From: a bacterium
GTDB taxonomy: Bacteria; UBA4055
NCBI GenBank assembly: GCA_029559475.1
Contig: JAKQBN010000047.1
Location: 1-32,770 of the forward strand
Direction of reading: 5' to 3'
DNA length: 32,770 nucleotides
Positions within the stretch are counted from its first letter, which is position 1, and the number at the start of each line of letters is the position of its first letter. Shown piece after piece: positions 12,859 to 32,770 of this stretch. A model generated the notes under the pieces. That model was not told the DNA's origin. It saw only the letters and a program-made list of their open reading frames with translations, and did not search any database. The translations under genes and the position numbers were made by a program.

Positions 12859-13030
12859 CAATTTTATGTCCAATAAATAGCTAATAACGCTTCCCAAAAG
12901 CTGATTTCAGGGCTTCCGGTTTTTTTCCTAAAAATCCAAATGCTCCACAAAAACGGAACGATGGATTTTTTTAACGGCAAAAAACATTCGCGCCTTATTC
13001 AGAAATCACTTTACGGTCAGCTTGCATTAT

Positions 13031-27566: not shown

Positions 27567-28475
27567 TTAGGCAGGTTTCCAGTCTCTACATTTTTTATTC
27601 CATGTTAAAGATAGATCTGAAGGTTTTATAGCCGGTAATATAAATTCCGATACGGATATTGCGACTATTGAAAAGTCCGGAACTTCAATCGTAGGCTCAG
27701 ATTTTTTTATAAAACTGATCCATTGCCTGATCTTTTGATCATTTAAAACAAATTCATCTCTAAAACAAGTCGGTAATGATGTCGGAATCATAGTACCTCT
27801 TCTTTTGAATGTTTCATAAATGGCTTTTGAAAGTTCTGATATTTTATAGTCGAACAACTTAGAGAGATACCAGATGTCGAAAAAGTCTTTCATTCTGCTG
27901 TTGCTCATATCCAACTGAACCATGGCTTCAAATTTTTCTGCAATGGAAGTATATCGCGAATAGGCTTTAAGCTGAGGTTTCTCCATATTAAGAATTACCG
28001 GATAAGTTACATTTTCAAATGGAGGATAGACAGAATCTCCAAAACCGATATCAATCTGCATATTTGTTACTGCACTATGGATAAACGAAGAAATTAAAAC
28101 TCTTACACCACCGTAAATTTGATTTTCTCTGATTTCTTCAACCGATATTTTATCCGTATCAAATACAATTCCGTCAGAAATATCCGTTTTATCACATATT
28201 TCCTTAATAATGACTCTGATTTTATTAAGATCAGGAACTATGTTTCCGAGAAGATCAATATCCTTTGTCATTCTGGCATTCTCACCTGTCCATACATAAA
28301 ATAACCCTGCTCCTTTAAGAGCAAAATCATCACTGTATTTAGAAATGCTTAATCTGTGAAGAAACCTTTCATTAGAATATCTTTTTAGAACATAGTTAAG
28401 ATCCAACTTTTCTTTTCGTGCGTAATTTTTGAGTTTTTCGAAGACAGAATGTCCCGCATTGTTTTTTATTTTCAA
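27567..28475 (-). CDS. abiEii: AbiEii-family nucleotidyltransferase toxin
   Basis: A 302-residue protein of the type IV abortive-infection/toxin-antitoxin family. 'LKGAGLFYVWTGENARMTKDID' near residues 53-74 holds the nucleotidyltransferase motif (GG/GA-x-L ... R.T.D.D) with the metal-binding Asp pair. 'AEKFEAMVQLDMSNSRMKDFFDIWYL' is the second family signature. Such enzymes add nucleotides to tRNA or otherwise stop growth, and they defend against phage. It overlaps the AbiEi stop by 4 bases. The complete motifs suggest it is active. Confidence 0.93.
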   Translation of the reverse strand: MKIKNNAGHSVFEKLKNYARKEKLDLNYVLKRYSNERFLHRLSISKYSDDFALKGAGLFYVWTGENARMTKDIDLLGNIVPDLNKIRVIIKEICDKTDISDGIVFDTDKISVEEIRENQIYGGVRVLISSFIHSAVTNMQIDIGFGDSVYPPFENVTYPVILNMEKPQLKAYSRYTSIAEKFEAMVQLDMSNSRMKDFFDIWYLSKLFDYKISELSKAIYETFKRRGTMIPTSLPTCFRDEFVLNDQKIRQWISFIKKSEPTIEVPDFSIVAISVSEFILPAIKPSDLSLTWNKKCRDWKPA

Positions 28476-29089
28476 TTCAAACTCTCCATATAGGGCTGTA
28501 TTACCTTATTTACACTGCAGACTTTCGCTGCTTCATATATTTCTGCTATCGAAGCCTTTTTCCCCCTGATAATTTCTTTAAGTGCTTCAACAGCGACATC
28601 TATTCCTATTTTATTCCTGAATTTAAAACAATCCGCTACCGTTTTTGCCGGTGAATAAACTTTTATTACGACATTTTTAATTTTATGTTCCTCTATCCCA
28701 TAAGAATAACTATCACCAAAAAAAGAATAATACTTTACATCTACAGAATCAATTTGCGGTTTCCATGTATTATTTTGGACTGCAATGTGGATTTTTCCTG
28801 ATATTTGAGTTGTAACATTATGAAAGCTGAGCGCAGAAATCAGGCAGATTACTCCAGAAGGGACTTTTTTTGCGACCTCAACATAGGAATCGTAACCTTT
28901 AAAATCTGCTCCGGGCAAACCATAAAGCCCGCGTGCAACTCTGACAATTAACCCTTTTGTAACCATTCTCGTAAGGTAAATCCTCTCGGTTCCTGCAACT
29001 TCAGCTTCTTTGGCTCTTACAACACCTTTTTTCTTTATAAGATCAATTATTTTTTTTTCTTTGACTGAAATTCTACTCCTTTGTTCCAT
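28472..29089 (-). CDS. abiEi: AbiEi-family antitoxin / transcriptional regulator
   Basis: A 205-residue antitoxin. The N-terminal winged helix ('KKIIDLIKKKGVVRAKEAEV', 'RIYLTRMVTKGLIVRVARGLYGLP') is the standard AbiEi DNA-binding domain, and the C-terminal domain contains 'YSPAKTVADCFKFRNKIG', a family signature. It should repress the pair's promoter and counter AbiEii. No Shine-Dalgarno site precedes ATG 29089, and the predicted transcription start is only a few bases upstream, so the message may be nearly leaderless. Confidence 0.92.
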   Translation of the reverse strand: MEQRSRISVKEKKIIDLIKKKGVVRAKEAEVAGTERIYLTRMVTKGLIVRVARGLYGLPGADFKGYDSYVEVAKKVPSGVICLISALSFHNVTTQISGKIHIAVQNNTWKPQIDSVDVKYYSFFGDSYSYGIEEHKIKNVVIKVYSPAKTVADCFKFRNKIGIDVAVEALKEIIRGKKASIAEIYEAAKVCSVNKVIQPYMESLN

Positions 29090-29099
29090 AAACTACAAC

Positions 29100-29127
29100 A
29101 ATATAATCAATGTTATATAAAATGCAA
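29100..29127 (-). promoter_or_regulatory. Promoter and possible operator of abiEi-abiEii
   Basis: On the minus strand TTGCAT (29127-29122) and TATATT (29105-29100) are 16 bases apart. Within it ATATAA-N6-TTATAT (29101-29118) is a perfect inverted repeat, and CAACAATA occurs twice in direct orientation (29096-29103 and 29125-29132), bracketing the promoter. These are plausible AbiEi sites. Confidence 0.45.
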
Positions 29128-29147
29128 CAATAAAAGTCAAAAATACT

Positions 29148-30983
29148 TCACTTCTCCAGTCCTGACCGCATATTTCTGAGAGATTGTTCATTAATGCCTA
29201 ATTCATCAGCAATTTGCTTTGTATTCATACCTTTACCGGATAAATATTCGATAATCTGAATTCTGAGGCCGTTGCTTAATCCCCTCGAAGTAATAGCCTT
29301 TTGTTTCAACAGCGATATTATACTTTCAAGTGAGTAGAATTTCAGCTCTAGCGTTTCAGCGTTTTCAGTTTTATTTGAAGCAGGTATAATGAATTCTAAC
29401 TCTTTTTTCTTCATATTAGCAAGGAAATTCAGCATAGCCTGATATACGATCTTTTCCAATTCTCTAATATTCCCGGGAAATTCATATTCGTTTAATTTTT
29501 TAAAACTATCTTCAGATATTTTAATTTTACGATCTTCTTCTACATTATTATCTTTGATAAACTTACTTACAAAATACGCAGTCAAAAGCTCAATATCCTC
29601 TTTTCTGTCCTTGAGCGCAGGCGAAACGATCTCCGCGCCGGTGATCCTGTAATAAAGATCCTGCCTGAACTCTTCTTTTTTTATCTGACCCGCCAAATCT
29701 TTGTTGGTCGCGAAAACCAGCCTCGTTTTGCTAACATCTCTTTCGATATTCTCTCCCACGCGAACGATCTTCTTTTCCTGCAGGACCCTGAGCATTTTAC
29801 TCTGCTGATAAACAGGCAAGTCTCCAATTTCATCAAGGAACAGGACTCCGTTCTCAGCCTCTTCAAAAGGGCTTTCTCTTCCTATATCCTTTGCTCCAGT
29901 AAATGCACCTTTTACATAACCGAACATTTCGGCTTCGAATAATTCATGTGGGATCCCCGCACAGTTCTTTGTAACAAATTTTCCTTTACCTTTCCCGAGG
30001 TGGTAAATTGATTTTGCGATAAGCTCCTTTCCCGTACCGTTAGGACCGAGAATAAGAATATTATGCCTGAATTTTGAATACTTTGAAAGTTTCGCGAACA
30101 TATCGAGAGCAGCCGCACTTTTACCGATAATAAGAGGAGCACCGTCCATTCCGATAAGCTCAATTATCCCTTCAAAATACGCCAAATTAAAATTCTTCTT
30201 GGATATAAAATGATCAGCGCCCATAGCGAAAGACTTATAAGCCGCATCGAAACCGTCATGACCGGAAAGCATGATCACCTTAACCGATGAATTGTATCTC
30301 TTCAAAGCCTTAAGAATGTCGAAACCGCTCTTATCCGAACCGGCGAATTCAATATCAAGAACGGCGATGTCGAACCTTTGTTTTTTATCCGTAAGTTCAA
30401 TCACAGACTCAATACTGTTCCCCACTGTCAGCCTGTCAGATGATTTCTGCTCTTTACCGATATCATCATCGGCAAAAAGAATTTTTTCCGGTCTATTCTT
30501 AAGGAAATCAATGATCTGAGAATATTGGTTTTGCTTTAATTTCTGATGTTTCAGATAGTCAGTTTCAGCATTTTTTTTTTCTACACTATCCAGAGATATT
30601 TTAGTGAGCAAAGTAAAGTCAAATTGCGATTTTTCTTTCCAGTGATTCAGAAAATTTGATATGTTTATACAGAAGATTTGAAAATTTATGAAATGCTCTT
30701 TTCCTTCAAATTTATAAGATTTTTCTCCGCCTGAAAAATATACAACATGACCTTTATAATTTTCGATGGATTCATAGAATTTTTCTTCGTATTTTTCCAT
30801 ATCGGTTTTATGAATCAAAACAAGTTCGTAGACATCCCAATTAATTATTTTTGAGCTTTTGTATATAGAATCATAAAAATCAAACAACTCAATTCCGGTT
30901 TTTGATGACGAAATATTTGACTTCAATAAAGAAAAACGGTCTTCATTTTCTTTGGAGTTAAAAACAATACAGATTTTATTCAT
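29148..30983 (-). CDS. Sigma-54-dependent activator with unfamiliar N-terminal domain plus receiver domain
   Basis: A 611-residue enhancer-binding protein (residue numbers here count from the alternative start 30989). Residues 1-130 match no family I know but alternate strand and helix like a receiver without the Asp ('KICIVFN', 'YELVLIH', 'HVVYFSGG'). Residues 168-285 are a receiver with acidic 'ADDD' and phospho-acceptor Asp212. The AAA+ domain has Walker A GPNGTGKE (315-322), the sigma-54 loop GAFTGA (361-366), Walker B FLDEIGD (384-390) and 'FRQDLYYRI' arginine fingers. The C-terminus has an HTH ('MNTKQIADELGINEQSLRNM'). ATG 30983 is chosen because GAGGAG lies 7 bases upstream; ATG 30989 would be one base from it. 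It overlaps the GHKL-like gene by 8 bases. The divergent sigma-54 promoter is its likely target. Confidence 0.92.
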   Translation of the reverse strand: MNKICIVFNSKENEDRFSLLKSNISSSKTGIELFDFYDSIYKSSKIINWDVYELVLIHKTDMEKYEEKFYESIENYKGHVVYFSGGEKSYKFEGKEHFINFQIFCINISNFLNHWKEKSQFDFTLLTKISLDSVEKKNAETDYLKHQKLKQNQYSQIIDFLKNRPEKILFADDDIGKEQKSSDRLTVGNSIESVIELTDKKQRFDIAVLDIEFAGSDKSGFDILKALKRYNSSVKVIMLSGHDGFDAAYKSFAMGADHFISKKNFNLAYFEGIIELIGMDGAPLIIGKSAAALDMFAKLSKYSKFRHNILILGPNGTGKELIAKSIYHLGKGKGKFVTKNCAGIPHELFEAEMFGYVKGAFTGAKDIGRESPFEEAENGVLFLDEIGDLPVYQQSKMLRVLQEKKIVRVGENIERDVSKTRLVFATNKDLAGQIKKEEFRQDLYYRITGAEIVSPALKDRKEDIELLTAYFVSKFIKDNNVEEDRKIKISEDSFKKLNEYEFPGNIRELEKIVYQAMLNFLANMKKKELEFIIPASNKTENAETLELKFYSLESIISLLKQKAITSRGLSNGLRIQIIEYLSGKGMNTKQIADELGINEQSLRNMRSGLEK

Positions 30984-31824
30984 TTTCATTCTCCTCAGCT
31001 ATTTTATCTATAGTATATATTTTTATAACAATAGTACTTCCTTTAATATCGTTTTCCTGTTTTATTATCTTTCCGGAAATTATATCTAGAAAGCGGTCTT
31101 TATTAAAAATTTCTATCGTACCGTAATTTGATATACGCTTGTAAATATTTAAACTGCTGCCTACGGTTATGAAATTATCCAGATCAATTTCTTTCTGGTC
31201 ACTGATGCTGATTATTATTTTATCATCTACTTTTTGGAAATTGAAAACTGCTGAGTCAATGTCCGAGTGTCTTTTTAAGTTATGAATAATTGATGTCCAG
31301 ATATCATTTATAATATTTTTTTCAAGGTAAAATTTCTGGCCTGCACCGGGTGTACTTCTTTTTACATTTAATTCTTTTAGTTTATAGAATTGGAATTCGA
31401 AAGCATTCTTTAATTCTTCCTGTGTCTCTTTTGAAACCGGTCCTTTCTCAAATTCCTCAAAAGTTTTTTCAAAAAGATAAATATTTGATTTTTCGAGCCT
31501 TTCCTTAAAAGAGTTGAATTCCTTTATTATCGAACCAAATAAATCTTTCACAACCTTATAATCCGTATCATGCAGCATATCATGTATTGAATTTTCTCTA
31601 TCTCCGCCGTATATGCGGTAGTTGAAAAACCTGCAAAGTACATTCAACAAACTATTCTTTTTAATTTCAGACTTTGTCTTAGATATAGAAAGTATAGTTT
31701 TTAGTTCATCCGGATCCATACTGTGATTTATTTTTCCGTCTGACAAAATATCAAACTTCGGTGAATCAGTATTTCTTATAAATATCGAATTCTGCTTTAC
31801 TTCTTTATTGTTTTCATAGCTCAT
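30976..31824 (-). CDS. Degenerate GHKL (histidine-kinase-like) ATPase-domain protein
   Basis: A 282-residue cytoplasmic protein (numbers below count from ATG 31836). From about residue 165 the pattern follows a HATPase_c domain: N-box-like 'INDIWTSIIHNLKRH' (Asn186), 'KIIISISDQ' where a kinase has VxDNG, 'GSSLNIYKRISNYGTIEIF' where kinases have GLGLxIVKxIV..HGG, and a final 'KGSTIVIKI'. The G1 glycines and GxGxG loop are absent, and I see no H-box, so kinase activity is doubtful. The N-terminal half is helical and unrecognised. ATG 31824 has GGAG 6 bases upstream and is preferred. Its gene overlaps that of the sigma-54 activator, so the two probably act together. The GHKL call is mine from pattern, not from a search. 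Confidence 0.7.
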   Translation of the reverse strand: MSYENNKEVKQNSIFIRNTDSPKFDILSDGKINHSMDPDELKTILSISKTKSEIKKNSLLNVLCRFFNYRIYGGDRENSIHDMLHDTDYKVVKDLFGSIIKEFNSFKERLEKSNIYLFEKTFEEFEKGPVSKETQEELKNAFEFQFYKLKELNVKRSTPGAGQKFYLEKNIINDIWTSIIHNLKRHSDIDSAVFNFQKVDDKIIISISDQKEIDLDNFITVGSSLNIYKRISNYGTIEIFNKDRFLDIISGKIIKQENDIKGSTIVIKIYTIDKIAEENENE

Positions 31825-31851
31825 TACTTGCTCCATTGACGTGATTGCTGT

Positions 31852-31880
31852 AAAATAATAAACAAATATTAAAAAATCAA
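31852..31880 (-). promoter_or_regulatory. Sigma-70 promoter of the GHKL-activator gene pair
   Basis: On the minus strand TTGATT (31880-31875) and TATTTT (31857-31852) are 17 bases apart, about 20 bases before the predicted start region of the GHKL-like gene. It points away from the sigma-54 promoter. Confidence 0.5.
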
Positions 31881-31900
31881 CTATTAAACATTGAAAAAAT

Positions 31901-31913
31901 AACTATAATAGTT
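31901..31913. repeat. Palindrome, candidate binding site of the sigma-54 activator
   Basis: AACTAT-A-ATAGTT is a perfect 6+6 inverted repeat. The half-site AACTAT recurs at 31879-31884, 22 bases (two helical turns) away. The palindrome lies about 68-80 bases upstream of the expected sigma-54 start, a normal place for an enhancer site. Confidence 0.5.
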
Positions 31914-31954
31914 AAAATTATAATTATAAAACAATTCGTTAGCTATGAAATAAT

Positions 31955-31970
31955 TGGCACGACCATTGCA
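31955..31970 (+). promoter_or_regulatory. Sigma-54 (-24/-12) promoter
   Basis: TGGCAC (31955-31960), five bases, then TTGCA (31966-31970) matches the sigma-54 consensus TGGCAC-N5-TTGCW. The invariant GG (31956-31957) and GC (31968-31969) are exactly 10 bases apart. Transcription would start near 31981, about 35 bases before the ATG at 32016. No other good sigma-54 site was seen in the window. Confidence 0.85.
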
Positions 31971-32015
31971 TTTAAATAAAGCGTTGGACAAAAAACTAAA
32001 AAATGGAGAAACAAA

Positions 32016-32579
32016 ATGAAAACAGCAGAAAACAAAAACCAGAACCAGAAAGTAAACAACACTAAAACAGAAAACCAAACAAAAAGGGAGTTCAAAATGA
32101 AAAGCATGCTGACAATCATCTTCGCAGTAATTCTTACCGCAAATTTAAATGCTCAGTGGAACAACGATTACGATTCTTATGACTCTTACGAATCGAGCAC
32201 CAGCCTGTACAATAACTCAAACAGCATCTACAATAATTCTAACAGTCTTTCTTCAGGTTGGACAACTCAGACAACAACGATCAGACCATATAAAGATGTT
32301 TACGGAAACAGTTACTCGAATCAGAACAATCTTTGGAATGATCAGGATAACGACGGATTAGTTGGCTACTATGATAATAATGACAGAAACAGTAGCTGGA
32401 GTGCTTCAACGAAAATAAATACAAACATCTATAACAACAACTCTTACTATAATTCAACACCGAGTTACGATTACAACTCTAACAAAACAATCCAAACCGG
32501 ATCAAGAGGCGGTCAGTACTACATCAACAGCAACGGAAACAAAACTTATGTAAATAAAACAAACGCATGGGGGTACTAA
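32016..32579 (+). CDS. Secreted Asn/Tyr/Ser-rich protein under sigma-54 control
   Basis: A 187-residue protein from ATG 32016, or 160 residues from the in-frame ATG 32097; both have GGAG 7 bases upstream. The shorter form begins directly with a signal peptide (basic MKSM, hydrophobic core, 'NLNA' then QW). The longer one adds 27 very polar residues before it. The mature chain has low-complexity repeats ('YNNSNSIYNNSNSL', 'DYDSYDSYESS'), a DxDxDG-like calcium-site pattern 'NDQDNDGLVGYYD', and a conserved-looking C-terminus 'GGQYYINSNGNKTYVNKT', which recalls small 'GGxYYINxxGNKxYV' tails seen in other secreted or viral proteins. Function unknown; a surface or extracellular role is inferred. 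A terminator follows. Confidence 0.85.
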   Translation: MKTAENKNQNQKVNNTKTENQTKREFKMKSMLTIIFAVILTANLNAQWNNDYDSYDSYESSTSLYNNSNSIYNNSNSLSSGWTTQTTTIRPYKDVYGNSYSNQNNLWNDQDNDGLVGYYDNNDRNSSWSASTKINTNIYNNNSYYNSTPSYDYNSNKTIQTGSRGGQYYINSNGNKTYVNKTNAWGY

Positions 32580-32696: not shown

Positions 32697-32770
32697 ATGA
32701 AGATTCTGATTTTCAATAAAGATAAAAGACAACTCGATCCGTTCAACGAGAGAATAAAAAAAACTCTGGA
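32697..32770 (+). CDS. Start of an unidentified gene (cut by window edge)
   Basis: ATG 32697 follows CGGAG and a consensus promoter. Only 24 residues are visible ('MKILIFNKDKRQLDPFNERI' then KKTL). The beginning looks like the first strand and helix of a receiver-type fold and resembles the start of the sigma-54 activator at 30983 ('KICIVFNSKENEDRFSLLKS'). It may encode another regulator of the same type, but so short a piece cannot settle this. Confidence 0.6.
   Translation, partial: MKILIFNKDKRQLDPFNERIKKTL

Follow-up and report, generated by a model that had tools for sequence, protein, structure and literature searches.

A compact sigma-54 module in Candidatus Delongbacteria, comprising an activator, a degenerate GHKL partner and a -24/-12 promoter, is likely to act as a lineage-specific switch for cell-surface proteins, one whose target has been swapped and whose partner controls the activator by contact. 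The pair and the site occur in three genera while the surface gene differs, so that pair and site are the constant part of the locus and the divergent gene the variable one. As read from these comparisons, the conserved unit is the regulator pair with its promoter, not the set of three genes. What is new is an activator architecture specific to this lineage, its non-ATP-binding GHKL partner and the change of target. For an uncultured phylum this provides a sigma-54 circuit that is concrete and open to testing, and it links a low-complexity secreted protein, not recognisable by other means, to the control logic of pili.

In the proposed scheme, the activator would bind upstream of the divergent -24/-12 promoter, where its GAFTGA-bearing AAA+ ring would open the RpoN-polymerase. 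The opened promoter would then yield a secreted surface protein, Asn/Tyr-rich in the window and chaperone-usher pilins in the relatives. The partner would act by direct contact, as a co-regulator or an anti-activator in the manner of NifL on NifA, and not through kinase activity. Phosphorylation may enter through the partner receiver and the activator receiver in the relatives, the activator receiver alone being left for this input in the window copy.

Layout of the locus and its promoter

The window, the whole stretch of 32,770 nucleotides analyzed here, is a complete contig (C53) of a 2.28 Mb Candidatus Delongbacteria MAG; a search for a contig overlapping its end beyond position 32770 found none. 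The following features make up the locus:

29148-30989, minus strand: activator gene, ORF of 613 aa (REC-like N-terminal alpha/beta domain, residues ~1-130; receiver, ~165-280; AAA+, 287-522; HTH, ~570-613)
30976-31836, minus strand: partner gene, ORF of 286 aa, overlapping the start of the activator by 14 bases (helical segment and degenerate GHKL, histidine-kinase CA-like domain, lacking the N-terminal receiver of the relatives)
31837-32015: divergent intergenic region, 179 bases, 22% G+C
31955-31970, plus strand: -24/-12 sigma-54 promoter TGGCACGACCATTGCA, pointing towards the exported-protein gene
32016-32579, plus strand: gene for an exported Asn/Ser/Tyr-rich protein, ORF of 187 aa
32595-32620, plus strand: intrinsic terminator of the exported-protein gene, 11 pairs, 6 of them G-C

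These ORFs and coordinates agree with a preliminary description of the window, which had placed the sigma-54 site between an activator operon and a divergent gene for an exported protein with its own terminator. It had also called the near-perfect -24/-12 site the only good one; within the window, TGGCAYNNNNNTTGCW is matched exactly by TGGCACGACCATTGCA alone. The site scores 12/12, a value reached by none of 20,000 dinucleotide shuffles of the intergenic region. A stricter pattern, TTGGCAYRNNNNTTGCA, occurs twice in the whole genome (~0.27 expected from base composition), the other copy lying 43 bases upstream of clpB. Across 13 family genomes this pattern is found 25 times and its reversed control not once. 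Most of these sites lie ~25-125 bases before the start codons of clpB, hsp20, groES, flagellin, pilin and signalling genes, which argues that the pattern marks real sigma-54 promoters in Delongbacteria. The window genome encodes RpoN, and together with the nearby promoter this gives the activator the genomic setting of a sigma-54 enhancer-binding protein. With the -12 GC at 31968-31969, transcription is predicted to start near 31981, the usual distance for sigma-54. Control of the bacterial exterior by sigma-54 is a known general theme (PMC3162934).

The adjacency of activator and promoter could be incidental, with the activator serving other promoters and a different enhancer-binding protein driving the exported-protein gene. 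At least one other sigma-54 activator is present in the genome, a receiver-less protein of 383 aa (C25) that is found across the family, plus a weak third match (C44), and Delongbacteria sites often precede clpB, hsp20 and groES with no activator obviously adjoining. This explanation is quite unlikely, given that the divergent arrangement and its site recur in three genera and that the window genome holds only two strict sites. Since one of the two precedes clpB, for which the 383-aa protein would be a natural candidate, the window activator would be left for the window promoter.

Strict sites before clpB, hsp20 and groES are seen in many Delongbacteria genomes (G000:C47:103831-103847, L059; L055-L079). 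From their positions they appear to constitute a sigma-54 chaperone regulon of the kind reported for Bacteroidota and Planctomycetota; chaperones under sigma-54 control have been reported in other phyla (PMC12316311).

Further genes flank the module. Directly downstream of the activator, positions 27567-29089 encode an AbiEi/AbiEii type IV toxin-antitoxin pair (PADLOC 7e-75 and 5e-89). Upstream of abiEi, at 29110-29140, lies AAATGCAACAATAA, which is also found in the activator-side intergenic region of G011 (L029 near 13012-13027) and is either a common promoter element or a chance match in A+T-rich DNA. At the other end, a gene beginning MKILIFNKDKRQLDPFNERIKKTL (32697-32770) is cut by the contig end. 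What remains of it looks like the start of a receiver domain and might represent the one that the window partner lacks, but the sequence is too short to tell.

An activator with two receiver-like domains

The catalytic motifs of the activator are all intact. GAFTGA, Walker A (GPNGTGKE) and Walker B (LFLDE) are present as first described, and so are the arginine fingers (FRQDLYYR), which completes the AAA+ signature of sigma-54 enhancer-binding proteins. Pfam assigns Sigma54_activat (3.7e-53) and, above its cut-off, Response_reg (5.4e-10). The C-terminal HTH is recovered by the PADLOC RtcR_PspF2 AAA-HTH profile, which spans residues 287-607, and the model is helical at 554-609; Pfam HTH models match weakly, below their cut-offs.

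In the receiver, D174-176, D212 and K264 are invariant among orthologues and position 242 is Ser or Thr. The acidic pocket, phospho-Asp, Ser/Thr and Lys of response regulators are accordingly all in place, helix 1 being shortened and the phosphorylation residues intact. In the AlphaFold model of the preceding N-terminal domain, strands and helices follow one another much as in a receiver; the models of the two proteins are of moderate confidence (pLDDT 66 for the partner, and 62). As a whole, this first domain was found only in three Delongbacteria genomes among the 386 sampled.

Like NtrC/NtrX-type group I response regulators, the activator combines a receiver, an AAA+ domain with GAFTGA and an HTH, and among solved structures NtrX and NtrC4 come closest to it in fold. 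Unlike them, it has an extra N-terminal REC-like domain, a shortened receiver helix 1 and no adjacent cognate histidine kinase. The shortened helix is shared with cREC (PF20274), which matches two of the three activator orthologues, one at 27.7 bits (cut-off 27) and one just below it at 26.2 bits. The window activator reaches only 15.1 bits, and both it and the orthologues score higher with the ordinary receiver family. Cyclic-phosphate processing is the function proposed for cREC (PMC7824862), but nothing at the window locus points to it.

A defence link was considered for the partner and rejected. The partner has no PADLOC match that would link it to defence systems, and the activator hits are RtcR-type AAA-HTH proteins that do not cover its N-terminal half.

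A GHKL-like partner that has lost its ATP-binding boxes

The partner had been described as a degenerate GHKL protein, and both halves of that description are borne out. Residues 113-278 of the predicted model (pLDDT as above) match histidine-kinase CA domains with Z scores of 9-11, giving the CA (Bergerat) fold of GHKL histidine kinases, although sequence profiles detect no CA domain in the C-terminal half. Read in alignment against the textbook boxes, the ATP-binding features of GHKL kinases (N-box Asn, D-box DxGxG, glycine-rich G2) are missing from all four partner copies: Ser or Lys stands in place of the N-box Asn, and neither the glycines of the D-box nor the G2 glycine box is retained. 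Autophosphorylation is consequently unlikely on sequence grounds, and the loss of these motifs in every copy suggests that the partner probably regulates the activator in the manner of NifL, without catalysis of its own. The most economical mechanism would be a direct action of the partner on the activator.

What the locus shares with NifL-NifA of Azotobacter and Klebsiella is an operon that encodes a sigma-54 activator together with a GHKL-bearing partner. The C-terminal domain of Klebsiella NifL lacks ATP/ADP-binding features and yet forms a stable complex with NifA (PMC9866876). In contrast to that system, the partner has no PAS domain of the type carried by NifL anti-activators (no Pfam match in any copy) and the activator no GAF domain. 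Receiver domains are instead present in the activator and in the relatives' partner, and the target is a surface protein rather than the nif genes. The locus thus adds a compact example of a sigma-54 activator paired with a GHKL protein devoid of ATP binding, a situation for which NifL has been the principal model.

In the relatives, the partner consists of a receiver followed by the GHKL-like domain, the receiver carrying D17, D62, S100 and K124 (G011 numbering), which points to phosphorylation as an input. The window copy has lost this receiver. The composition of receiver, helical segment and degenerate GHKL, encoded beside a receiver-bearing activator, is also what a phosphorelay would require. 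The partner would then be a Spo0B/ChpT-like phosphotransferase, a non-ATP-binding GHKL protein in which a conserved histidine relays phosphate from the partner receiver to that of the activator. Catalytic residues are kept in the receivers of both the activator and the relatives' partner, and one histidine (H89 in the window) is invariant in all four copies. In the model, however, H89 is located between two short helices, where a DHp hairpin would present it on a long surface helix, and the window partner has no receiver left to supply it. A phosphorelay through H89 is therefore a live but unlikely alternative, less probable than direct NifL-like control.

The lost receiver and the low identity of the window partner to the other copies (27-32%) might also mark it as a degenerating remnant beside an activator that now works alone. 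This is improbable for a gene whose 286-codon frame is intact, whose 14-base overlap with the activator persists, and whose product keeps the predicted core fold and the 42 invariant columns. Contact-dependent control by a functional partner remains the preferred reading for the window as for its relatives.

A conserved regulator pair with different targets

A complete activator-partner pair is present in three genera of the family, represented by the window, G007 and G011. Compared with the window, the activator and partner are 45% and 31% identical in G007 and 40% and 32% identical in G011. In both relatives the activator gene precedes the partner gene, an order that is reversed in the window. 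G003 contributes a partner alone on a short contig and the 5' fragment of a second partner at another contig edge. In the two other genomes of the window's genus, and in most of the family, no such pair was detected; all of these are incomplete MAGs. Two peptide patterns run against 84,980 species returned three Delongbacteria loci only. Beyond the family, profile searches of the 386 sampled genomes gave receiver-domain matches only; very divergent copies could have escaped either approach.

The divergent gene of G007 and G011 encodes a signal-peptide-bearing, pilin-like protein (46% identity between the two). Each is preceded by a -24/-12 site scoring 10/12, TGGCATACTGTTTGCA in G007 and TGGCATGATAAATGCA in G011, scores reached by 27 and 32 of 20,000 shuffles, respectively, and both sites end 60-61 bases upstream of the gene start. 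In G007 the pilin-like gene is followed by a PapD-like chaperone (PapD_N 3.1e-4, just below cut-off), an usher (Usher 1.2e-14) and a second pilin-like gene. The latter and its G010 counterpart, behind a 67%-identical usher, also carry -24/-12 sites. In the chaperone-usher clusters without the pair (G007 C36 and G003 C338), no site above 6/12 was found in the 350 bases upstream of the pilin genes. The contig of G011 breaks off inside the second pilin gene, and a search of the G011 genome for an usher found none. The G007 targets, with pilins, chaperone and usher, are those of a chaperone-usher pilus operon, whereas the window target is one exported protein and the window genome has no usher match.

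Of the conservation anticipated in the preliminary description, the regulator pair with its -24/-12 site has stood and the three-gene set has not. A conserved three-gene unit is rejected, as the Asn/Tyr-rich gene has no clear relative in the other family genomes and none in the phage records searched. An upstream binding site common to the window and its relatives was looked for and not found; a 14-mer shared by G007 and G011 only could equally be the activator's own promoter. Tentatively, the locus may represent a portable sigma-54 cassette, made up of an activator with two receiver-like domains, a non-ATP-binding GHKL partner and a promoter, that was kept as the surface gene was exchanged, with loss of the partner receiver and reversal of gene order in the window. 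With no more than three complete pairs known, the case for a target swap draws on few genomes.

The best start of the exported protein is a second ATG at 32097, which has its own AGGGAG and stands immediately before the signal peptide. The 27 residues that precede this ATG in the annotated ORF may accordingly be untranslated or form an extended leader. The mature part of 141 residues contains 30 Asn, 23 Ser and 19 Tyr, with short SxYNNSNS repeats and a single EF-hand-like loop, DQDNDGLVGYYD, that fails the strict pattern at its last position only. A C-terminal motif, RGGQYYINSNGNKTYV, weakly resembles PBCV_basic_adap (PF08789; 16.8 bits, cut-off 20.4); a search for this family in the other family genomes gave no match, nor any control match. 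Its composition, and the pilin genes that occupy the same place in the relatives, suggest that the protein is probably a matrix-forming or adhesive surface protein. The "massive expression" once attributed to it found no support.

Further Delongbacteria chaperone-usher clusters with several pilin-like genes lack a sigma-54 site (L091:3626-7572 and L092:5359-9852). A different association with sigma-54 is seen at L090:2329-3378, where a 349-aa ORF joins a sigma-54 DNA-binding-like domain (PF04552, 2e-10) to a GIY-YIG nuclease domain (1.2e-4). It splits what appears to be a single PAS histidine-kinase gene, the halves lying at 344-2311 and from 3408 onward, and may be a mobile nuclease ORF that has acquired its DNA-binding domain from elsewhere.
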